A stretch of 56,470 bases of DNA from Desulfofustis sp. PB-SRB1 (GTDB taxonomy: Bacteria > Desulfobacterota > Desulfobulbia > Desulfobulbales > Desulfocapsaceae): assembly GCA_016722945.1 (NCBI GenBank), contig JAEQMT010000021.1, forward strand, positions 1 through 56,470, written 5' to 3'. The notes beneath the pieces were generated by a model that did no database searches, was not told the origin of the DNA, and was given only the letters and a program-made list of their open reading frames with translations. This document shows positions 30,597 through 41,542 of the stretch, in pieces; the stretch's first letter is position 1; each line of letters opens with the position of its first letter. The position numbers and the translations under genes are program-made.

Positions 30597-31850
30597 TCAC
30601 CGCGGCTGCATGTGCGCTTGCGTCGTCTGGTGATGGTGCCCCGTTTTACCCTGATAGACGGCCGCCAGTCCTTCCGCGATCAACCCTTCGGCCTCGATTG
30701 TCTCGATGCCGGCGGTGGCGAGAATTTTCGCCGGTTTTTCACCGACGCCGCTGACCAGAACGGCGCGGCAATCAGCCAGCACTTCGGCCATTTCACGCCA
30801 GCGCCTGGCGCCGCTGCCGGGTTGCGGGGCGGCTCTTTTTTCAACCTCGACATAATCACCATTGCGGCGTTCCCAGATGGAGAGAGAAGCCGCCTCGCCA
30901 AGATGCTGATTAATAAGAAACCCCTCTTCACTTGCCACCGCCACATAGGGACGCTCCGCCGCTCCACCACTATGCTGCTCGGATAGACGGTCTTCCGCCA
31001 TACAGCCAAGCGACGCAGCGGTGTGACTCTCGCCCAGCAGCCCCACCGCATCGGCCCGGCAGCGGCGGCAGTGGCGCATCTGCGGCAGATATGACTCGGC
31101 CTTTTGGCGGACGCGTTCAACGCTCTTTTTATCGGGCTGCGGCAGTGAACCAAAAACGCTGTTCTTGGCCGGGTAGAGCGGCATGCAGTTGAACAGATCG
31201 ACGCCAAGACTCTGCATTCTCTGGGCCACCCGTTCCACATGATGGTCGTTGATGCCGGGGATCAGGATGCAGTTCACCTTAATGGTCATCCCGTGCTTTT
31301 TAATGGCTGTTATGGCTTCGAGCTGCCGGGAGAGCAGCAACGCGGCGCCGGACTCGCCCGTCAGGATGGTGTCGCCATCCTGCACCCGGCTGTAGATACG
31401 GGCCCCAATGGCAGGATCCACGGCGCACACGGTGATGGTCAAATGAGACACATTGAGTTCCGCTAATTCATCAATATATGGGCCGATGGCCAGGCCGTTT
31501 GATGAAATGCACAGCAGCAAGTCGGGATGAGCACGGTGAAGCAGCCGCAGGGTGGACATGGTTTTGTCGGGGTTGGCGAAGGGGTCGCCCGGCCCGGCAA
31601 TACCCGCTACCGTGATGTTGGAGTGACGGCTGCGTACCTGATTCACATAATCAACCGCCTGATGTGGGCTCATCACCACGCTCGTCACTCCGGGCCTAGA
31701 TTCGTTGACGCAATCGTAACGCCGATCACAGAAGTTGCAGGAGATATTGCAGGCCGGCGCCACCGGCAGGTGGACGCGACCGTAGAGCCCCTTTACGGAG
31801 CTGTTAAAACAGGGATGCTTGATACGGGAGTTTTCAAGTGCGGCAGTCAT
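30597..31850 (-). CDS. nifB: NifB with C-terminal NifX domain
   Basis: Radical-SAM enzyme that makes NifB-co, the core of the FeMo cofactor. ATG 31850 gives 417 residues. The cluster motif is CNISCNFC (Cys34, 38, 41), followed by the NifB-specific DRRYDCVNESRPGVTS and the SAM-site region AGIAGPGDPFANP. Two further Cys pairs (FNCMPLYP, HCRRCRADAVG) fit the additional cluster ligands. From about residue 300 a NifX-like cofactor-binding domain follows (VAVASEEGFLINQHLGEA, AEVLADCRAVLVSGVG). Last gene of the nif operon, 28 bases after nifN. Confidence 0.95.
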   Translation of the reverse strand: MTAALENSRIKHPCFNSSVKGLYGRVHLPVAPACNISCNFCDRRYDCVNESRPGVTSVVMSPHQAVDYVNQVRSRHSNITVAGIAGPGDPFANPDKTMSTLRLLHRAHPDLLLCISSNGLAIGPYIDELAELNVSHLTITVCAVDPAIGARIYSRVQDGDTILTGESGAALLLSRQLEAITAIKKHGMTIKVNCILIPGINDHHVERVAQRMQSLGVDLFNCMPLYPAKNSVFGSLPQPDKKSVERVRQKAESYLPQMRHCRRCRADAVGLLGESHTAASLGCMAEDRLSEQHSGGAAERPYVAVASEEGFLINQHLGEAASLSIWERRNGDYVEVEKRAAPQPGSGARRWREMAEVLADCRAVLVSGVGEKPAKILATAGIETIEAEGLIAEGLAAVYQGKTGHHHQTTQAHMQPR

Positions 31851-31878
31851 AACCGATCCAGTATAAATAAGATTGCGG

Positions 31879-33237
31879 CTACATATAGCTGTAGCCGATG
31901 GGGGAACTATCCTGCTTGCGGGCGATAATGGTGTTGGTAATTTCGTCGAACAGACGCTGGGCGCCGGCAAAACCGACATGCAGGAGCCGCTGACCGCCGA
32001 CCCGGTCATGGATGGGAAAGCCCACCCGAATGAGCGGCAGGTTGTGCTGACGGGCAAACCGGTATCCCTTGGAATGGCCGATCACCAGATCGACGCCGCA
32101 CTCAGCCGCGCGGTTCTCGATATCGTAAAAGTCGACTCCTTCATGCACCTCCGGGGTCGGCACCTCGATGTCGCCAATCGCTTCACTTATCGCCTGGGCA
32201 AACCGCCCGCTTTTGTCGCCGGATGCACACAATACCGGGTGAATACCGATTTCACTTAAAAATCCGGCCAATCCCGCCACCAGATCCTGTTCGCCGTAAA
32301 TCACCGCCCGTTTGCCGAAGATATATTTGTGCCCGTCCACCATGGCATCCACCAGCCGTCCGCGGGCTTTGGCATAACAAGGTGGCATTGGCTTGTCGGC
32401 ACAATCAGACAAAAGCGCCATAAACTGATCAGTTGCCCTGATGCCGATGGGCAGCCCACAGCCGGCAACGTTAGCGCCATAGTGGCGGGCCAGATAGGCT
32501 CCGGCGCTTTTCTCATCGACGGTAGCGCCAAGCTCGATGGTAAGTTGCGCCCCGGCCATGGCGGCGATTGATCTCTGATCAGTACCGCCGGCGGGGATGA
32601 GCGGGTAAGAGTTGAGGGCTACGCCATCCAGGGTCTCGGAATAGTCGGGTAGCAAAGTCGCATCAAGACCGAAGTGGGCGCATATATCCTTGAGATGGCG
32701 GATATCGGCCGGTGAGAGCATGTTACCCAGGATGGTAACCCCGTCATGGGGTGGAGTGGGACCGGTAAGTTGCTCCACCACGGCTCGCATGGCGGCATGA
32801 AATCCTTCCATATGGGTGCCGCCATAGGATGGAGTGGAAACGGTGACGATTTTGGGTCCGTCTTCGGCACCGAATTCTTCGTTATACTCCCGTACCAGCA
32901 TGGGCAGATCATCGCCGATGGTCTCGGTGAGGCAGGTAGAGGCAACCCCGATCAGGCTGGGACCATACCGTTTGATGACATTTTGCAGACCAAGTTTCAG
33001 ATTCGGCCCGCCTCCGTAGATTGCATTTTTTTCTCCCAAAGAGGACGAGGCGATATCCACCGGCTCACTGAAGTGGCTGATCAGATAACGCCGCATATAG
33101 GTGGCGCACCCCTGAGATCCGTGCAAAAATGGCACGCATCCTTCGATCCCGCGAAAGGCTAAAGCGGCGCCCAGCGGCCGGCACAATTTACAGCCGTTGG
33201 TGGTGGAGATATAATCTGGGTTGAGGGGAGCGCTCAT
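31879..33237 (-). CDS. nifN: nitrogenase cofactor scaffold NifN
   Basis: Subunit of the NifEN complex on which NifB-co matures to FeMo-co. ATG 33237 overlaps the nifE stop (ATGA), leaving 452 residues. Cluster-ligand regions include NGCKLCRPLGAALAF and HGSQGCATYMRRYL, with STCLTETIGDDLP as in the NifK/NifN family. The C-terminus ends in SYM. No NifB fusion is present, unlike some clostridial NifN-B proteins. Confidence 0.93.
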   Translation of the reverse strand: MSAPLNPDYISTTNGCKLCRPLGAALAFRGIEGCVPFLHGSQGCATYMRRYLISHFSEPVDIASSSLGEKNAIYGGGPNLKLGLQNVIKRYGPSLIGVASTCLTETIGDDLPMLVREYNEEFGAEDGPKIVTVSTPSYGGTHMEGFHAAMRAVVEQLTGPTPPHDGVTILGNMLSPADIRHLKDICAHFGLDATLLPDYSETLDGVALNSYPLIPAGGTDQRSIAAMAGAQLTIELGATVDEKSAGAYLARHYGANVAGCGLPIGIRATDQFMALLSDCADKPMPPCYAKARGRLVDAMVDGHKYIFGKRAVIYGEQDLVAGLAGFLSEIGIHPVLCASGDKSGRFAQAISEAIGDIEVPTPEVHEGVDFYDIENRAAECGVDLVIGHSKGYRFARQHNLPLIRVGFPIHDRVGGQRLLHVGFAGAQRLFDEITNTIIARKQDSSPIGYSYM

Positions 33238-34598
33238 ACAACCTCCTTGCGCCGGGGCACAAATCGCCAGACCGGACTCATCACTGACTGGTACACTTCT
33301 TTGGTAAAATTGAGCATGCCGGCAAACCCGGCCAGCATTTCCTTGCGCTCGTGATTGTGGTCGCAAAACGCCACCCCGAGTTTATAAGCGATGGGTCGCT
33401 CCTTTACTCCGCCGACAAAGATATCCACATCCTTTTCCCTGATAAACGATGCCAACTCAAGGGTGTTGGCATCATCGACGATGATGGTGCCGGGATCGGT
33501 AATCTCCGCCAGTTCCTCATAATCCTCTTTAGTACCGGTCTGCGACCCGACCATGACCACATCCATATTGAGCATGCGAAAGGCCTTAACCAGGGAAAAC
33601 GCCTTGAAAGCGCCGCCTACGTAAATCGCCGCCTTTTTTCCGCGCAGCGCTTCCTGGTATGGCACCAGTTGCGGCAGCAGGGTGCTGATTTCCTCGCGCA
33701 CCAGGTTTCTGGCCCGCTCCAGCAGCACCGGGTCACCAAAATGGCGGGCCACCGAATAGAGGGCCTCGGCCATATCCTCGACCCCGAAATATGACACCCG
33801 CAGCGAAGGGGTGCCGTAGCGTTCATGCATAATATCGGCCAGCCCCATGGTGGCCCCGGAACATTGCACCACGTTGAGGGCGGCGCCGTGTGCCCGGGCA
33901 ATGTCCGCCACCCGTCCGTCACCGGTTATATTGGCCACCACCTCGATGCCGATGCGCTCAAAATAGTCCCGAATCTGCCATATCTCGCCGGCCAGGTTGA
34001 AATCACCCAAGATATTGATGGAATACGGAGAGATACCGCTGGTGTCGCCGGTACCCACCAGACATCCCATGGCGTGGCAGGCGGCCTCATAACCGGCCCG
34101 CTTGTTACCCTTGAACCCTTCTGATTTAACCGGCAGCACGGGTATCTTGGTCTGGGCGGCAACCTTTTTGCACACCGCATCCAGATCATCACCGATAATG
34201 CCCACTATGCAGGTGGAATAGACAAAGGCGGCGGCGGGACGATGGCGCTCGATTAGCTCGAACAGGGCGCGTTCGAGTTTCTTTTCGCCGCCGAAAATTA
34301 CATCCATCTCCTGCAGATCGGTGGAAAACGAGAGACGGTTGAGCTCCGGCCCCGAGGACAGCGCACCGCGAATATCCCAGGTGTAAACGGCGCAGCCGAT
34401 GGGGCCATGGACCAGATGAAGGGCATCGGCAATGGGATAAAGCACCACCCGGGAGCCGCAGAAAACGCAGGCACGCTGGCTGACGGCGCCGGCTAAAGAG
34501 TCCTTGTTGCACTCCATGGCACCTTCATCAGCACCGGTGCGGCGGATCTGAGGGGCTCGTTCAGCAAGTATGGTCGAGCTGTTCATAGCTGTTTTCAT
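33234..34598 (-). CDS. nifE: nitrogenase cofactor scaffold NifE
   Basis: Partner of NifN in the cofactor scaffold, 454 residues. Conserved blocks: RACVFCGSRVVLYPI, LHLVHGPIGCAVYTWD, DVIFGGEKKLERAL, STCIVGIIGDDLDAVC and GTGDTSGISPYSINILGDFN. Starts at ATG 34598, with ATG 34586 as a nearby alternative. It couples by a 4-base overlap to nifN. It follows the 81-residue protein gene after 50 bases. Confidence 0.94.
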   Translation of the reverse strand: MKTAMNSSTILAERAPQIRRTGADEGAMECNKDSLAGAVSQRACVFCGSRVVLYPIADALHLVHGPIGCAVYTWDIRGALSSGPELNRLSFSTDLQEMDVIFGGEKKLERALFELIERHRPAAAFVYSTCIVGIIGDDLDAVCKKVAAQTKIPVLPVKSEGFKGNKRAGYEAACHAMGCLVGTGDTSGISPYSINILGDFNLAGEIWQIRDYFERIGIEVVANITGDGRVADIARAHGAALNVVQCSGATMGLADIMHERYGTPSLRVSYFGVEDMAEALYSVARHFGDPVLLERARNLVREEISTLLPQLVPYQEALRGKKAAIYVGGAFKAFSLVKAFRMLNMDVVMVGSQTGTKEDYEELAEITDPGTIIVDDANTLELASFIREKDVDIFVGGVKERPIAYKLGVAFCDHNHERKEMLAGFAGMLNFTKEVYQSVMSPVWRFVPRRKEVV

Positions 34599-34648: not shown

Positions 34649-34894
34649 TTACTGTTCGCTGGAAATGGTGCGTACCGAGTCGATGGCTTCCCAACCCATA
34701 TATGTGTTGATCGATTCGTTATCGACCTGCTCGGTGATGCGGACAAATTGTTCCCCCATAAACAGCACCGCTGAATCAAGTACTTTTCCTTCGTTTATCT
34801 GGAGCTTGACGCCTTTACGCAGCTTTCGCGACAGGGTGCCGTGCACCGGCATGGATGCGTATTCAAGGATTTTTTCAAGGGTATCTTTGTTCAT
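34649..34894 (-). CDS. small nif-operon protein of unknown function
   Basis: An 81-residue soluble protein, MNKDTLEKILEYASMPVHG at the start, with a Lys/Arg-rich middle (LSRKLRKGVKLQI) and an acidic C-terminal half. No Cys, no membrane segment. A good GGAGATAG ribosome binding site precedes ATG 34894. The length, composition and operon position speak for a real gene, probably an accessory or regulatory protein of the nitrogenase system. I do not recognise the family. Confidence 0.7.
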   Translation of the reverse strand: MNKDTLEKILEYASMPVHGTLSRKLRKGVKLQINEGKVLDSAVLFMGEQFVRITEQVDNESINTYMGWEAIDSVRTISSEQ

Positions 34895-34951: not shown

Positions 34952-35401
34952 TCAATAGTTCCAGCTAGTATTTCGCAGACAGATCAGGTTGGTATGCTGC
35001 CAGCCGTGTCGGCGGTACCACATCAGTCCCGTTTCGTTGTCACGATCAGCCAGCAGCTGCATACGGCCCGCACCTTGTGAGCTTGCCCACCTCTGCAGCT
35101 CCGCGAGCAGCAGAGTTCCGATCCCCCGACGCCGCCAGCCCTCGTCCACAACCACATCTTCCACCAGAACCGACAAACCGCCCTGGGCCGTGGAGACGAC
35201 CAGCTGACCGGTGGCCATACCGCGCACCGCACCTTCCGCCTCGGCAACAAAAACCCTGGCCAGGGAGGATGCAAGCAGCATGGCAAGGCCACGGTGCTGG
35301 GTCGGGGCGTCGAAGCAAAAATCCTGTTCGACACCGAAAAGCTGATTGAGAAGCACAAGCATCGCGTCGCTATCTTCGGAGGTGGCGCAACGAATCAGCA
35401 T
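34952..35401 (-). CDS. GNAT-family acetyltransferase in the nif operon
   Basis: N-acetyltransferase of 149 residues. The acetyl-CoA loop is WRRRGIGTLLLAEL (motif A), preceded by VEDVVVDE, and motif B is GLMWYRRHGWQHTN. The substrate is unknown. It sits between the ferredoxin and the small protein in the nif operon, with 24 bases to the ferredoxin gene, so it is presumably coexpressed with nitrogenase. It could modify a nitrogenase component or a metabolite; nothing in the sequence decides this. Confidence 0.85.
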   Translation of the reverse strand: MLIRCATSEDSDAMLVLLNQLFGVEQDFCFDAPTQHRGLAMLLASSLARVFVAEAEGAVRGMATGQLVVSTAQGGLSVLVEDVVVDEGWRRRGIGTLLLAELQRWASSQGAGRMQLLADRDNETGLMWYRRHGWQHTNLICLRNTSWNY

Positions 35402-35425: not shown

Positions 35426-35728
35426 TCAGCGCAGCAGGTAGTCGGCCGCCGGCTCACCATCTTCGAGTCCGTCTAAAATGGCCTCGATGGCGGCTTCACT
35501 GTCAACGTTTTGAAACCACCAGTTCTCCGGTTGAACCACCATCACCGGCCCCGCATCACATTGCTTCATGCAGCCGGTGGCCACCACATGCATGTCCAGG
35601 CCGCGGTCGATGATCTCTTCTTCGATGAACTGCAGGAAGCCATCGGTTTTCTTGTGACAGACTCCCTTCGGATCTCCCTTGAGACGAAAGCTCTGACACA
35701 CCAGTATTTGTCGTTCAGGAATGGCCAT
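35426..35728 (-). CDS. thioredoxin-fold [2Fe-2S] ferredoxin
   Basis: Small (100 residues) ferredoxin of the thioredoxin-like [2Fe-2S] type. Four Cys at 11, 24, 53 and 57 fit the pattern C-x12-C...C-x3-C (VCQSF, GVCHKK, TGCMKQCDAGP). Such proteins occur in nif clusters of several bacteria, where they may donate electrons to nitrogenase or to cofactor assembly. ATG 35728 with GGAG upstream. It directly follows the NifB-like/NifX gene in the operon. Confidence 0.88.
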   Translation of the reverse strand: MAIPERQILVCQSFRLKGDPKGVCHKKTDGFLQFIEEEIIDRGLDMHVVATGCMKQCDAGPVMVVQPENWWFQNVDSEAAIEAILDGLEDGEPAADYLLR

Positions 35729-35755: not shown

Positions 35756-36883
35756 TTATTTCAACGGTTTGCCGGAATACAGAGCGGCAACCGTTACGGA
35801 AACGTTATCATTGGCGCTGAGCACCGATATCCCCTGTTCTTCCAATGTCCGGCGCGGGGTATCACCCACCGCCGCGGCCACCAGGGCAAAACAATCAGCC
35901 AGAGTTTCGGCCAGTGTCCTCCAGCGTTTATCGCCACCGCCGGGCGGCGGGGTTTCTCTGGTTTCGCGAAGCCCGATGGTGCCGTTTTCGTCAGGACCGA
36001 TGATCAACAGATGGCTGCATTTCCCCAGATGAAGATCAACATGGGTACCGGTACTGCTTGCCACCGCCACGTTGGGACGGTTCGAATCATGTTCGATGGT
36101 CGCCTGGACAGCCAGCAGGTCGCTCACCGTATCCCGCATGGGTTCACATACACTCAGATAGATGCTGAGATCTTTCTCGGCCCGCTCCATCTCGTTTACT
36201 GTCGGTTCGCGCAGACTGGCCGGTGCGGCCGGGTCTGGATGATATGCGGAGATGGCCACCGCGGAGGCCCCGCAGGTTTGCATGACCTCGCCCAGCATCT
36301 GCAAATGAGCGGTGTTAATCTCTGGAAAAACGGTGGTACCAATCACCACCGGCGCTCCCGCAAAACCAAAGGCGGCAACACATTGACGCTGCCGCTCTGC
36401 AAATACAATGGTGGCTTTTTCAAGCTTGAGCGTCTTGCGTTCCGGCCGTATCCAGGCGTAGAGCTTTGCCAGAATCTCGGGACTTACGGCATGAACCGCA
36501 ATTTCCACGTAATCCACTCCGGCAGCTACCAGTTCCCGGGCATAACGACCACCATCGATGCCCAGGGTGCGCAGACCGATGCGCATATCCGGATAGGCCT
36601 TTCGCACCATGTCAATTGTGCGCAGAGTCGGCTCGGGGGTGGCCAGTGGATCACCGGTACCGCCAAGGACAACCATGTCGATACGACCATCACGTGCCGC
36701 CATACAGAACGCGAGATGGGCTTGTGCCCGGTCCGCTGAAAAGGGGGTGAAGGAAGAGGACATGGTGGTGGCAAAGCGTAGCTGCGCCACCACCTGGGTG
36801 CCCACCGGCAACTCAATGATGTTCGGTGGCAATGGCGCCGGCTTAGCGGCGCCTGCCTCAACATATGCGTGTAATGCGGACAT
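35756..36883 (-). CDS. NifB-like/NifX fusion lacking radical-SAM cysteines
   Basis: Protein of 375 residues with the same two-domain plan as NifB but without its Fe-S motif. The N-terminal strand that carries CxxxCxxC in NifB reads ELPVGTQVVAQLRFATTMSS here (about 24-43) and the region 1-55 contains no Cys. The barrel remains recognisable: VLGGTGDPLATPEPTLRTID aligns with the NifB segment AGIAGPGDPFANPDKT, and VDYVEIAVHAVSPEI with its partner. The C-terminus (about 270-375) is NifX-like (NVAVASSTGTHVDLHLGKCS, ETLADCFALVAAAVGDTP). ATG 36883 follows nifK by 11 bases. It could bind and carry a cofactor intermediate, without SAM chemistry. Confidence 0.85.
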   Translation of the reverse strand: MSALHAYVEAGAAKPAPLPPNIIELPVGTQVVAQLRFATTMSSSFTPFSADRAQAHLAFCMAARDGRIDMVVLGGTGDPLATPEPTLRTIDMVRKAYPDMRIGLRTLGIDGGRYARELVAAGVDYVEIAVHAVSPEILAKLYAWIRPERKTLKLEKATIVFAERQRQCVAAFGFAGAPVVIGTTVFPEINTAHLQMLGEVMQTCGASAVAISAYHPDPAAPASLREPTVNEMERAEKDLSIYLSVCEPMRDTVSDLLAVQATIEHDSNRPNVAVASSTGTHVDLHLGKCSHLLIIGPDENGTIGLRETRETPPPGGGDKRWRTLAETLADCFALVAAAVGDTPRRTLEEQGISVLSANDNVSVTVAALYSGKPLK

Positions 36884-36894
36884 CAACGGTATGC

Positions 36895-38270
36895 TTACAG
36901 TACGAGTTCAAACTCTATTTCGGAATCGTCCCGGTCCTTGCGATCAAGCAGGGCTTCCAGGATTTTTTCGAGGATGCGCAATCCACCCATATAACCGACC
37001 GTCGGAAAATGCTGGTGCCCCTGCCGGTCAAGGATGGGAAAACCCCAGCGAACCAGCGGTGTATCTTCATCCCGGGCGATGTATTTGCAATAGGTGTTGC
37101 CGATGATCAGATCCACCGGCTCATTCTTGATAAGCTGATGGAACAGGAACATATCACCCTTGGCCTTGACGTTGACTTCAAAACCGGCCGCTTCGGCAAT
37201 CGCCCTGATCCGCTTTTCAAATTTCTTACCAGGTGTTCCGGTCACCACATGCACCGGATGCATATCCAGGCCGCTGAGAAATTCGGTCATGGCGATGAGA
37301 TGGTCCGGGTCTCCCACCAGCGCCACTTTCTTACCGAAAAAGTACTGATGCATGTCGGAGATCATATCCACCAGCCGACCCCGCTCGATCATCAGCTCCT
37401 CCGGCACCGCCACCCCGCCGACCTTGCGCAGGGCATCGACAAACCGGTCGGTAGCCTGCAGGCCAAAGGGAATATCGAGTACCGAGCAGGGCACCTTGCA
37501 TTGGGTATCAAGCAGACGGGCGCCATCGGCCGAGCACCATTCCCCCAGTGCCAAAGTGCCGATGCCATCACCGCTGGCGATGATATCGTTGATATCGGCG
37601 CCGGCATCGGGGAAACATCGCATAATCGCCGGTCAGCGGCCCATTGAGTACCCCGGAAGTATCTGGGTACATGGTGATGGGAGTGCCGATCAATGAGGCA
37701 ATCCGCTTTATTTCCGCCATATCGGCCGGTTCTACCCAGCCGGGAAGAATATTTACCTTGCCGTTGCGCCGTTGTGATCGTTTTGCCAGCGCCGCCATGG
37801 CCTTGACCATATTGGCAAAGCCGGTGACGTGAGAGCCAACGTAACTGGGAGTTGGGGCGCCAAGCAGAAATTTGCCTTCGGGCACCTTGTTCTCCTTTTT
37901 TGCCTTATCAAAAATCTGCGGCAGATCATCACCGATGGTCTCTGAGAGGCAGGTTGTATGAACCGCGATACCCTGACGGTTCGTAGACATTGAAAATATT
38001 ATCGATGGCCTGGAGCAGATTGGCCTGGCCGCCAAATACCGAGGCGCCCTCGGTAAATGAGCTGGTGGCCGCCGAAATCGGCTCTTTGTAATGCCTGGTA
38101 AGGGTGGAGCGATGATACGCGCAGCAGCCCTGAGAGCCGTGGCTGTGCGGTAAACACCCTTTGATGCCCAAAGATGCGTACATGGCGCCGATGGGCTGGC
38201 AGGTTTTAGCCGGGTTGATGGTTAACGCCTTGCGTTCGGTAATTTCTTTGGGGGTATGTTTTAAAAGCAT
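36895..38270 (-). pseudogene. nifK: nitrogenase MoFe protein beta subunit, two frameshifts
   Basis: Beta chain of dinitrogenase. ATG 38270 starts MLLKHTPKEITERKAL; P-cluster ligand regions KTCQPIGAMYAS, HGSQGCCAYHR and TTCLSETIGDDLP are present. The frame breaks twice: near 37979-37981 (one extra base, restoring VYEPQGIAVHTTC) and at the GGGG run 37609-37612 (plus strand; reading three bases restores YAMFPDAGADINDIIASG). The repaired chain is 457 residues, the short form lacking the N-terminal extension, as in clostridial-type nitrogenases. Since nifD, nifE, nifN and nifH are intact, these indels are more likely sequencing errors than loss of nitrogen fixation. Confidence 0.92.
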
Positions 38271-38289: not shown

Positions 38290-39927
38290 TTATTCCCATA
38301 CGTAGGTAGCACGCAGTTCCGGTTCATCCTGCCAGGGCGCCTTGAGGTAGCCCCACACTCTGCTGTTCACCAACCGGTCAATTTCGTGGTAGAAGTTCAC
38401 CGCACCCTTAAAACCGGCATAGGGCCCGCCGGAATCGTAGCTGTGCAACTGTTTCATCGGCACACCAAGTTTCTGGATGGAGTATTTTTCCTTGATACCG
38501 GCACAAAACAGATCCGGCTTGAGCATCTCGACTAGTTTTTCCGCTTCGAACTGATTGAGATCGTCAATCACGATGGAGCCCTGCTCCATATCCTTGATCA
38601 TGCCGTCATACTCTTTGAACTCGAGACCCCGGCGGATAAGCTCGGCCATTTCCTCGGCCGTTTTACGGGGCTTGAACTGCTTGGGATCGGCGCTTACCTC
38701 GATCTCTTCGATGTTGCGGCTGTCGGCATCCACCTTGAGGCTGCCAAGAACCTCGCGCCCCTCATAATCGTCCCGGTGAGCAAATTCATAGCCGGCCGAG
38801 ATCGTGCGCATACCCAGTTCAGCAAACAACTCCTGGTAATGATGGGCCCGTGACCCGCCGACAAAAAGCATAGCCGTCTTGCCCTCGGTGCGTGGAGAAA
38901 TCTGTTTCCGCACCCGCTCAACCTCGGGCAATTCCTCGCTGATTACCGCCTCGATACGTTCCTTGAGGGCGGCATCATCGAAATAGTCGCCGATTTTGCG
39001 CAGGGATTTAGCGGTGGCATGGGCACCGATGAAGTTCACCTTGATCCACGGAATACCGTATTTGGTCTCCAGCATGTCGGCCACATAATTGATGGAACGG
39101 TGACACATGACACAACTGAGATCCGCCTGGTTGGCGGTGGCAAACTGCTCATAGGTGGAATTGCCGGAGAAAGTAGCGATATTGGTGATGCCGCATTTTT
39201 CCAGAATACGGTCGATCTCAAACCCATCGCCGCCGATATTGTATTCCCCCAGAAGATTTATCTTGAAAGGCTCATCACGCTCTTTCTCACCGGTACCCAC
39301 CACATGACGAAATACCTGGTTATTAGCGATATGATGGCCGGCGGACTGAGAGACCCCTTTGTAGCCTTCGCAACTGAAGGCAAAGACGTTGCAATCACCG
39401 AATTTTTCCTTCATTTTTTTGGCAACCGCGTGGATGTCGTCACCGATCAGCCCCACCGGGCAGGTGGCAAACACGGCGATGGCCTTTGGATGAAACAGGT
39501 CGTAGGCCTCCTGAATCGCCTTTTCGAGCTTCTTCTCACCACCGAAGATGATATCTGAATCCTGCATATCGGTGGTCATGGCATAGGTCATGAAGTTCTC
39601 ACCACGTTCACCGGAGGCATCGGTCTGGTTGCGCCTGGTCAGCCAGGCGTAAAAACTGCAGCCCACGGGACCATGGACGAGATTGACGATATCGCTGGTG
39701 GGTCCGAGAATTACCCCTTTACAGCCGGCATAGGTGCAGCCGCGCATGGTGATGATGCCGGGAATAGTGCGCACGTTGGCGGTAATTTCCGGCGTCGTAT
39801 TCTCCATCGCCTCATTTATGAGGATCTGCTTGGCACGCTTGCGTGCCACCTTGGGAGGATACTTTTCCAGCAGTGCTTCTTTGATGACGGCGGGGTCGGT
39901 GGGTGTCGTTTTAATAGCTTTTCCCAT
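38290..39927 (-). CDS. nifD: nitrogenase MoFe protein alpha subunit
   Basis: Alpha chain of dinitrogenase, 545 residues. P-cluster Cys64, Cys90 and Cys156 lie in MRGCTYAGC, HGPVGCSFYAW and FATCPVGLIGDD. FeMo-co ligands are expected at the Cys of MCHRSINYV and the His of QLHSYDSGGPY. An insertion of about 50 residues before the C-terminal domain (GSLKVDADSRNIEEIEVSAD onward) is the mark of the group with short NifK. ATG 39927 has TAGGAGGAA upstream. Molybdenum type is supported by nifE, nifN, nifB and modABC nearby and by no anfG/vnfG gene. Confidence 0.96.
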   Translation of the reverse strand: MGKAIKTTPTDPAVIKEALLEKYPPKVARKRAKQILINEAMENTTPEITANVRTIPGIITMRGCTYAGCKGVILGPTSDIVNLVHGPVGCSFYAWLTRRNQTDASGERGENFMTYAMTTDMQDSDIIFGGEKKLEKAIQEAYDLFHPKAIAVFATCPVGLIGDDIHAVAKKMKEKFGDCNVFAFSCEGYKGVSQSAGHHIANNQVFRHVVGTGEKERDEPFKINLLGEYNIGGDGFEIDRILEKCGITNIATFSGNSTYEQFATANQADLSCVMCHRSINYVADMLETKYGIPWIKVNFIGAHATAKSLRKIGDYFDDAALKERIEAVISEELPEVERVRKQISPRTEGKTAMLFVGGSRAHHYQELFAELGMRTISAGYEFAHRDDYEGREVLGSLKVDADSRNIEEIEVSADPKQFKPRKTAEEMAELIRRGLEFKEYDGMIKDMEQGSIVIDDLNQFEAEKLVEMLKPDLFCAGIKEKYSIQKLGVPMKQLHSYDSGGPYAGFKGAVNFYHEIDRLVNSRVWGYLKAPWQDEPELRATYVWE

Positions 39928-39937
39928 GATGTTCCTC

Positions 39938-40312
39938 CTAGCTGATTGACCTTTCGCCGCGCTCGCCGGTTCGTACCCGGAAGGCGTCACGCACCGGCAC
40001 AACGAAAATCTTGCCGTCGCCCGGCTTACCACTCTGATTGGCGCCGATAATGGCATCGATCACATCCGGCGCCCGCTCATCCTCGACCACAACCGTCACT
40101 ACCCGTTTTGGATAGAGCTTGCCTTTCTCGCCAAGCAGGGCGGCGGCTTCTTCATATCCCTGTTCAGTGCCCTGGATCAGGGTTCGATTTACAAAGCCGA
40201 GGCCACGCCCCTGAGCTTCGTGGACAAAAAAGGCATCGACTCCCGAATCGGTAAGGGCCTGCTTGGTCTGGTTCATCTTATTCATGCGCACCACGGCGAC
40301 GACCTCTTTCAT
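39938..40312 (-). CDS. nifI2: nitrogen regulatory PII-like protein NifI2
   Basis: GlnB-family protein of 124 residues, encoded between nifI1 and nifD. It has the PII core (MKEVVAVVRMNKMNQTKQAL, VTVVVEDERAPDVIDAI, GDGKIFVVPVRDAFRVRTGE) and the longer T-loop region typical of NifI2. In organisms with this pair, NifI1-NifI2 bind dinitrogenase and switch it off when 2-oxoglutarate is low after ammonium addition. The ATG overlaps the nifI1 stop. Confidence 0.94.
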   Translation of the reverse strand: MKEVVAVVRMNKMNQTKQALTDSGVDAFFVHEAQGRGLGFVNRTLIQGTEQGYEEAAALLGEKGKLYPKRVVTVVVEDERAPDVIDAIIGANQSGKPGDGKIFVVPVRDAFRVRTGERGERSIS

Positions 40313-40665
40313 GCCGTCACCTCCTCATCGCAGGAAACGGCCTCTTTGACGCCGGTGCTGATGGTGTAGACCTCTTCCACCTCGCTGACGAAAATCTTGC
40401 CGTCGCCAAAGGCACCCTTACCCGCTGAACGGGCAGTCTCCATAATGGTCTTGATAACAAACTCCTGATCGCAAGACTCAACCACCACAAGCAGCATGGT
40501 CTTGGGAATTTCATCGTAGGTAACTTCACCGATTTTTATACCGCGCTGCTTGCCGCGACCGGCCACGGAATACTTGGTGACGGCGGGAAAACCCGCATCC
40601 ATCAGTGCCGCCAGAACCGGATCCACTTTTTCTGGGCGGACAATCGCCCGTATCATGATCATCAT
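40309..40665 (-). CDS. nifI1: nitrogen regulatory PII-like protein NifI1
   Basis: GlnB-family protein of 118 residues. MIRAIVRPEKVDPVLAALMD is the PII N-terminus, followed by RGKQRGIKIGEVTYDEIPKT, in which the T-loop lacks the uridylylation Tyr context of GlnB, and GAFGDGKIFVSEVEEVYTI. The start is one of three closely spaced ATGs (40665, 40662, 40656); I chose the first, after AGAGGA. Forms the ammonium switch-off pair with NifI2. Confidence 0.93.
   Translation of the reverse strand: MMIMIRAIVRPEKVDPVLAALMDAGFPAVTKYSVAGRGKQRGIKIGEVTYDEIPKTMLLVVVESCDQEFVIKTIMETARSAGKGAFGDGKIFVSEVEEVYTISTGVKEAVSCDEEVTA

Positions 40666-40699: not shown

Positions 40700-41542
<843 letters not shown>

Follow-up and report, generated by a model that had tools for sequence, protein, structure and literature searches.

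NifB, NifX and NafY, three proteins of nitrogenase building, have an HFG motif in common, and H121 of NafY has been described as the key ligand of FeMo-co (PMC8496260; this and the other papers cited by PMC number are drawn on for the parts of their text that were accessible). In NifB of Methanosarcina, Cys50, Cys54 and Cys57 hold the SAM cluster, Cys30, Cys63 and Cys129 together with His43 hold K1, and Cys264, Cys274 and Cys277 hold K2 (PMC6053413; PMC7145814). NifX binds NifB-co via its His, which is missing from NifY and NafX (PMC13128457), and NafY and NifY bind the MoFe protein lacking FeMo-co (PMC6016461). A survey of NifB published in 2017 set aside 28% of the sequences annotated as NifB, most of which lacked the Cx3Cx2C motif and all of which had a NifX domain, and its authors took them for NifX mis-annotated as NifB (PMC5715403).

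Here, we describe a gene that lies between nifK and a ferredoxin gene in a large group of anaerobic diazotrophs and appears to have neither a name nor an assigned function. It encodes a conserved NifB-NifX paralogue without the radical-SAM cysteines, which is a family rather than a mutation, and which is called the twin below. In the open full-text literature, with subscription papers mostly outside the scope of the search, no account of this family was found beyond the sentence on the set-aside sequences in PMC5715403, and the accessible parts of PMC8351635 and PMC7341956 hold nothing on the gene.

The twin and its gene row

The window is a stretch of 56,470 nucleotides of a Desulfofustis sp. 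PB-SRB1 contig (JAEQMT010000021.1). Its minus strand carries a row in the order nifH, nifI1, nifI2, nifD, nifK, twin, ferredoxin, GNAT, 81-aa ORF, nifE, nifN and nifB (Table 1). By their coordinates, the nifK stop and the twin start are 11 nt apart, and the twin end and the 2Fe-2S ferredoxin 27 nt. The initial annotation had placed the gene directly after nifK and ascribed to it the plan of the operon's own NifB, and the alignment of the two proteins bears this out, with 29% identity over 330 positions (E 1e-42) spanning both the barrel and the NifX half. The clean frame claimed over 375 codons is likewise found, starting with ATG on the minus strand and open throughout; read on the plus strand, 35756-36883 is not a gene and contains stops. 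Residue numbers of the twin are counted here from a TTG one codon upstream (376 codons), and those of the ATG protein are lower by one.

In place of the CxxxCxxC strand of NifB the twin has a Cys-free strand, as had been noticed at the outset. The stretch without Cys, first given as 55 residues, in fact covers residues 1-60, the earliest Cys being residue 61. The GxGDPxA barrel motif and the NifX half, both said to be kept, are present, the former as GTGDPLA and the latter with 38.4 bits to PF02579 against a cut-off of 26.3.

Table 1. Features of the nif row in the window and of the twin within it
Feature	Coordinates	Strand	Basis
nifH	40700..41539	-	recognised from sequence; matches annotated nifH of N. 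vulgaris
nifI1 (PII-like)	40309..40662	-	recognised from sequence; slot annotated P-II family in N. vulgaris
nifI2 (PII-like)	39938..40312	-	recognised from sequence; slot annotated P-II family in N. vulgaris
nifD	38290..39942	-	TIGR01282, 673 bits
nifK, two frame breaks in assembly, directly upstream of twin	36895..38270	-	comparison with relatives
Cys-free NifB twin (NifB-NifX pseudoenzyme)	35756..36883	-	open frame, 375 aa from ATG, plus stop
NifB-type barrel without cluster ligands, residues 23-245	36152..36820	-	AlphaFold model and PDB NifB matches
Strand VVAQLRFA, residues 32-39, where NifB has CNxxCNFC (CNISCNFC in the operon's NifB)	36770..36793	-	alignments
GTGDPLA, residues 76-82, the AGPGDP motif of NifB, kept	36641..36661	-	alignment
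YAWIRPERKT, residues 143-152, family motif	36431..36460	-	alignment
NifX domain, residues 268-373	35768..36085	-	PF02579; model
His286 of HLG, in register with the cofactor-binding His of NafY (HFG) and NifX	36029..36031	-	alignment
2Fe-2S ferredoxin (thioredoxin-like), directly downstream of twin	35426..35728	-	NF041612 3e-15, below cut-off; conserved neighbour
GNAT acetyltransferase	34952..35401	-	PF00583
81-aa ORF, no family	34649..34894	-	Pfam none over cut-off, NCBIfam no match
nifE	33234..34598	-	ORF list and locus comparison
nifN, start uncertain	31879..33366	-	named from gene order and sequence recognition
True NifB, CNISCNFC and NifX domain	30597..31853	-	TIGR01290, 366 bits, over cut-off

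The copy in the window is a divergent twin: its end branch in the tree described below is 1.26 long against a median of 0.24, and several family residues, such as C305, R299 and Y296, are missing from it. The nifK breaks lie near NifK residues 98 and 219 and leave three pieces that are 78-96% identical to two relatives; they are either an assembly error or a recent lesion. With its divergent twin copy and its nifK broken in the assembly, the operon of the window may be atypical. As for the smaller genes of the row, 43 of the 51 twin loci, and 7 of another 10 that came from the phylum search, have a GNAT acetyltransferase in their nif region, and the 81-aa ORF is found in 17 of the 51, the window counted.

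A family separate from NifB

Close homologues carrying CxxxCxxC, which would have reduced the loss to a local mutation, were sought. When 97 related genomes were searched with the protein, the matches fell into two classes, and none of the 30 best has the motif. When relatives were assigned to the twin or to NifB by the best-matching query, the motif was absent from all of the former (0/51) and present in all of the latter (23/23), so that the homologues assigned to the twin lack the motif throughout and the motif-bearing relatives form a separate NifB side. The 51 comprise 49 twins from the relatives and two from Desulfovibrionaceae loci, the frames having been taken from nifD regions and from loci L031-L036. 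A local mutation is thus rejected, since the relatives are also without the motif.

In a tree of 108 proteins, which also took in the regions from the phylum search and three NifBs from other phyla, one branch divides the 62 proteins without the motif from the 46 with it (SH-aLRT 100). The NifBs from cyanobacteria, gammaproteobacteria and chloroflexi fall among the other NifBs, and twins of family f51 group with the Desulfovibrionaceae loci L032 and L034, which points to Thermodesulfobacteriota as the phylum of the search. For the tree and for the residue counts given below, the motif itself served to sort twins from NifBs, so 0/62 holds by construction; the independent motif counts are 0/30 and 0/51, and what the tree shows is that the label changes only once. 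It is a quick, unrooted tree, in which fast evolution after the loss of catalysis may exaggerate the split between twin and NifB, and from which frames shorter than 250 aa, over-long motif-free frames (two loci excepted), the repeats L103-L113, identical proteins and hits scoring below 140 were left out.

The profile TIGR01290 (NifB equivalog) matches the window twin with E 2e-31 and 109 bits, its cut-off being 344, and L042 with 116 bits; all 24 twins scanned match it, the best with E 2.8e-39. The same 24 all match PF02579 at 0.001. The radical-SAM profile PF04055 gives 25.8 bits for the window copy and 26.2 for L042 against a cut-off of 29.5; it also matches 24/24 at 0.001 (best E 6e-10), and some twins may pass the cut-off. 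By descent, the barrel of the twin belongs to the radical-SAM superfamily. TIGR02663 (nifX equivalog) gave no match on the window twin up to E 1 and was not among the nine families matched by the 24 twins at 0.001. A peptide-pattern scan of genome contigs with the window copy, a method that picks up close relatives only and here had a divergent query, found four loci, each centred on a CxxxCxxC NifB, and two of them, from Desulfovibrionaceae, have a twin nearby.

Distribution and gene order

Among the 97 relatives, 58 match nifD (TIGR01282) at 0.001, 55 of them with more than 600 bits. The twin is present in 49 of these 55 genomes and lacking in five (G063, G085, G068, G069 and G082), which have none after nifK and no match of the twin class; one, G087, whose contig ends at nifD, is assigned to neither group. 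nifK lies at most 240 nt upstream of the twin in 50 of the 51 loci and a ferredoxin downstream in 50 of the 51, the exceptions, L059 and L045, being contig ends. Wherever the contig extends far enough, the twin is thus found between nifK and the ferredoxin; in L038 the gap to the ferredoxin is about 2 kb.

A profile built from 24 twins was run against 394 genomes of the phylum with completeness of at least 90. Twins were found in at least 20 of them, all among the 102 with nifD at 1e-150: 11 of 13 in the window's order, 6 of 7 in f26, 2 of 12 in f51, 1 of 3 in f86 and 0 of 67 elsewhere. Nineteen score 396 bits or more; the twentieth, in G409, scores 322 bits, is motif-free and occupies the usual slot. 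Below it come four motif-bearing NifBs (307-316 bits), and all six weaker matches inspected (L118-L123) are of this kind too; the count of 20 is a lower bound, given that divergent twins under about 300 bits could be missed. The order nifK-twin-ferredoxin holds in all nine twin genomes outside the window's order.

The twin was not found in two plasmid nif regions of N. vulgaris, where nifK is followed by the ferredoxin. A search of a plasmid collection matched 57 records, with three N. vulgaris plasmids at the top, and most of the other matches listed are annotated nifB; a phage collection held no match to the twin of L058. The twin is thus not essential in general, being absent from five of the 55 relatives and from the two N. 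vulgaris regions and not found in 82 of the 102 phylum genomes with nifD.

Two further observations concern the neighbourhood and the architecture of NifB. On the plasmid of N. vulgaris DP4, a gene annotated as the antiviral reverse transcriptase drt2 is found downstream of nifB (L036:13670-14953). Open frames of 929-970 aa in L150, L151 and L152, from families f51 and f88, fuse NifN, NifB (CNxSCNYC) and a NifX domain, a three-domain form that has been described as confined to Firmicutes (PMC5715403).

Residues lost, kept and gained

By spacing and motif, the equivalents of the Methanosarcina ligands in the NifB of the window are C35, C39 and C42 for the radical-SAM (RS) cluster, C15, C48 and C115 with H28 for K1, and C262 and C265 for K2; Cys264 has no counterpart in this comparison. 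Of the 23 NifBs in one alignment, 21 have a tail rich in Cys at the C-terminus (such as CCGAGDGC; one example is L032:5779-7071), which is absent from the NifB of the window. The nine ligand positions and H13 of the HPC motif, ten in all, are invariant in 46 of 46 NifBs. Of these ten the twins retain none in 25 cases, one in 20, two in 12, three in two and four in three; that is, 57 of 62 keep at most two, none keeps more than four, and of the three RS cysteines at most one is left in any twin. C35, C39 and C48 are kept in no twin, C42 in two and H28 in 14.

The ligand position most often kept is the Cys at the HPC register (C15), found in 29 of 62 twins and in several as part of CxC or CCC. 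This Cys cluster in about half of the members, together with a Cys-rich insert late in the barrel region of the twins of two Desulfovibrionaceae MAGs (L032:1152-2450 and L034:1173-2486), could mean that the protein is still an enzyme, with a replacement Fe-S cluster bound near its N-terminus. This is very improbable: 33 of 62 members have no Cys at the C15 register, the window copy has none at all before its residue 61, and N119, an Asn invariant in 46/46 NifBs, is Leu in 52/62 twins.

G76 and G78 are found in 62 of 62 twins, P77 in 60 (T in the window) and D79 in 57, and W145, R147, Q166 and N191 are invariant. In the NifX half, H286-L-G and C332 are present in all 62. Residues have also been gained: R35 in 56 of 62, R37 in 52, P148 in 60 and K or R at 151 in 59. 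The His of the HLG motif, examined in the member L058, aligns with the His of HFG in the NafY core (1p90) and with the corresponding His of NifX (9ian).

Predicted structure

In a full-length AlphaFold model, the barrel has block means of pLDDT between 73 and 95, with a dip to 53 at residues 41-50, and the second domain is of low confidence (block means 26-64 from residue 251 on), for which reason it was also modelled alone. The best PDB matches of the barrel are four NifB entries, 7jma, 7jmb, 7bi7 and 6y1x, with Foldseek E of 8.5e-18 to 1.1e-16 and VIA Z of 27.0-27.8 (rmsd 1.9-2.4 over 214-237 residues), against Z 19.4 for the best match other than NifB, a PFL-activating enzyme. The model thus predicts the NifB-type barrel that the initial annotation had proposed; five NifBs were in the predictor's input alignment, and the fold therefore counts as support and not as independent proof.

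Modelled alone, the NifX half reaches a mean pLDDT of 91 and matches the core of NafY (Z 13.2) and the NifX of a NifEN complex (Z 12.7), which are tied. Proteins of the PF02579 type from outside nif, among them PH0822 and the orange protein, come next with Z 11.7-12.0; a nif carrier can therefore not be recognised by its fold alone.

Constraint and selection

In the 25 loci with both genes, pairwise identities average 61% (barrel) and 55% (NifX half) for NifB, and 39% and 57%, respectively, for the twin. Pair by pair, the NifX half is better conserved than the barrel in 299 of 300 comparisons among twins, and the barrel better than the NifX half in 262 of 300 among NifBs; the full sets (62 twins and 43 NifBs) give 58 and 53 for barrel and NifX half of NifB, and 39 and 60 for those of the twin. 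In the twins, constraint has shifted to the NifX half and away from the barrel.

This bears on whether the twin might be a partner of NifB, pairing with it in order to regulate or stabilise it or to take its product directly. Pseudoenzyme partners of active paralogues are a known kind, and the twin has the two-domain plan and the predicted barrel fold of NifB. However, the barrel is the faster-evolving half of the twins, unlike what a tight barrel-barrel interface would predict, and nifB need not be near the twin, the two being about 0.48 Mb apart in G037, a genome in one contig. We regard such a partnership as improbable.

dN/dS of the twin ranges from 0.15 to 0.57 in seven close pairs, six of them at 0.15-0.24, and that of nifK from 0.02 to 0.19; the twin is faster than nifK in 7 of 7 pairs and faster than nifB in 4 of the 4 compared. 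These values indicate that the twin is under purifying selection yet changes more quickly than the enzyme, as would be expected of an accessory factor, and they speak for the earlier view of it as conserved rather than decaying. A decaying or mis-assembled nifB copy without function could be suspected in the window, where the copy sits on a long branch, lacks family residues and adjoins a nifK with two frame breaks, and one pair does show dN/dS of 0.57. At the family level, however, decay is largely refuted: 49 of the 55 nifD genomes retain an open frame at this position, 22 alignment columns are invariant across 62 members, and the other six pairs have low dN/dS. Its probability is very small indeed, the lowest we would give to any reading considered here.

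A possible cofactor escort

What would a NifB without its cluster ligands do? A NifB-NifX protein would have been duplicated, and one copy has lost the RS, K1 and K2 ligand sets; judging from the sequences, this copy cannot make NifB-co in the way that NifB does. The duplicate would then have settled permanently in the nifHI1I2DK row, and the half of it that works would be the NifX domain, which has the cofactor-binding His in every member examined; the twin would bind NifB-co or FeMo-co via His286, as NifX and NafY do, and the empty barrel may act as a docking module. The likeliest dock would be cofactor-less NifDK, which the twin would cap or load, as NafY and NifY do in Azotobacter, because it follows nifK, and this is the slot of the NifY-type gene in the Pantoea nifHDKT-Y-ENX row. 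The Pantoea plasmid has nifHDK, nifT, a gene of 220 aa and nifEN, with a NifX-type gene after nifN; the names NifY and NifX were given by size and position, the record calling both 'NifB/NifX family', and gene order is weak evidence for a binding partner. With moderate confidence, we thus favour a NifB pseudoenzyme turned cofactor escort that would cap or load apo-NifDK. Sequences and models provide the family, the ligand loss, the slot, the kept His and the predicted fold, from which we infer cofactor binding, the partner and the direction of transfer. Since conservation in the twins is now higher in the NifX half, where this His lies, a carrier is favoured over a regulator, as far as sequences tell.

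Ranked second to the escort of apo-NifDK is a NifX-like delivery, in which the twin would pass NifB-co from NifB to NifEN and the dead barrel would recognise NifEN or the exit surface of NifB. The NifX half of the twin aligns and superposes with the NifX of the NifEN-NifX complex, nifE stands later in the same row of the window, and none of 60 genomes of the window's family has a NifX-type match at 1e-8. On the other hand, the twin lies beside nifDK, whereas the NifX-type gene of Pantoea comes after nifEN, and a NifX-type protein is present in 7 of the 49 twin genomes as well. Such a shuttle is possible, although doubtful. NifX-type proteins occur in nine of the 97 relatives, all below the family cut-off, and the two other than those seven are in twin-less genomes (2/5), which weakens a simple replacement of NifX by the twin.

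Three more PF02579 proteins of the window's genome lie on another contig, C1, outside the nif region, beside what, read by eye, we take to be MinD-type ATPases and a response-regulator cluster. PF16844, the N-terminal domain of NafY, matched in 0/97 genomes, and since the controls and the Pantoea nif plasmid were also matchless, its absence proves nothing.

A bolder version gives both halves a ligand. In the sequence, the basic residues R35, R37, R147 and K/R151 fall within or close to the former cluster region, and the emptied barrel might hold homocitrate or molybdate via these residues while the NifX half holds NifB-co. The protein would then join the precursor cluster with the organic acid (or Mo), or carry finished FeMo-co into NifDK. 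We give this reading a slim chance.

If the preferred reading of the twin as a cofactor escort is correct, the twin supplies a NafY/NifX-type step in those anaerobic diazotrophs. It would then also be a radical-SAM pseudoenzyme whose origin can be traced and in which constraint has passed to the second domain, and a candidate component of engineered nitrogenase. It is probably an unrecognised carrier protein for nitrogenase building in many anaerobic diazotrophs. There is also a warning for annotation: in these genomes, a match that bears the name NifB could in fact be the dead twin.

Comparison with known systems

With NifB, the twin shares the domain order, the predicted barrel fold, the GPGDP motif and the His of HLG, at the identity to the operon's NifB given above. 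It differs in lacking the RS, K1 and K2 ligand sets, in having its own side of the tree and in scoring far under the equivalog cut-off.

Like NafY and NifY, the twin consists of an N-terminal module and a NifX-like domain, and its slot after nifK resembles that of the Pantoea NifY-type gene. Its N-terminal module, however, is a dead NifB barrel of about 220-260 aa and not a domain of the NafY type. The twin keeps the cofactor His as NafY does, whereas NifY is without it, according to the accessible text of PMC13128457.

The C-terminal half has the same predicted fold and His register as NifX (PDB 9ian), the shuttle of NifB-co to NifEN. NifX is a single-domain protein whose gene lies downstream of nifEN in Azotobacter (PMC13128457), in contrast to the twin, which has a barrel and follows nifK. 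The proteins set aside in the 2017 survey are compared by their description only, as given in the accessible part of PMC5715403: the twins would fit it, but they carry a full NifB-type barrel and are not NifX.
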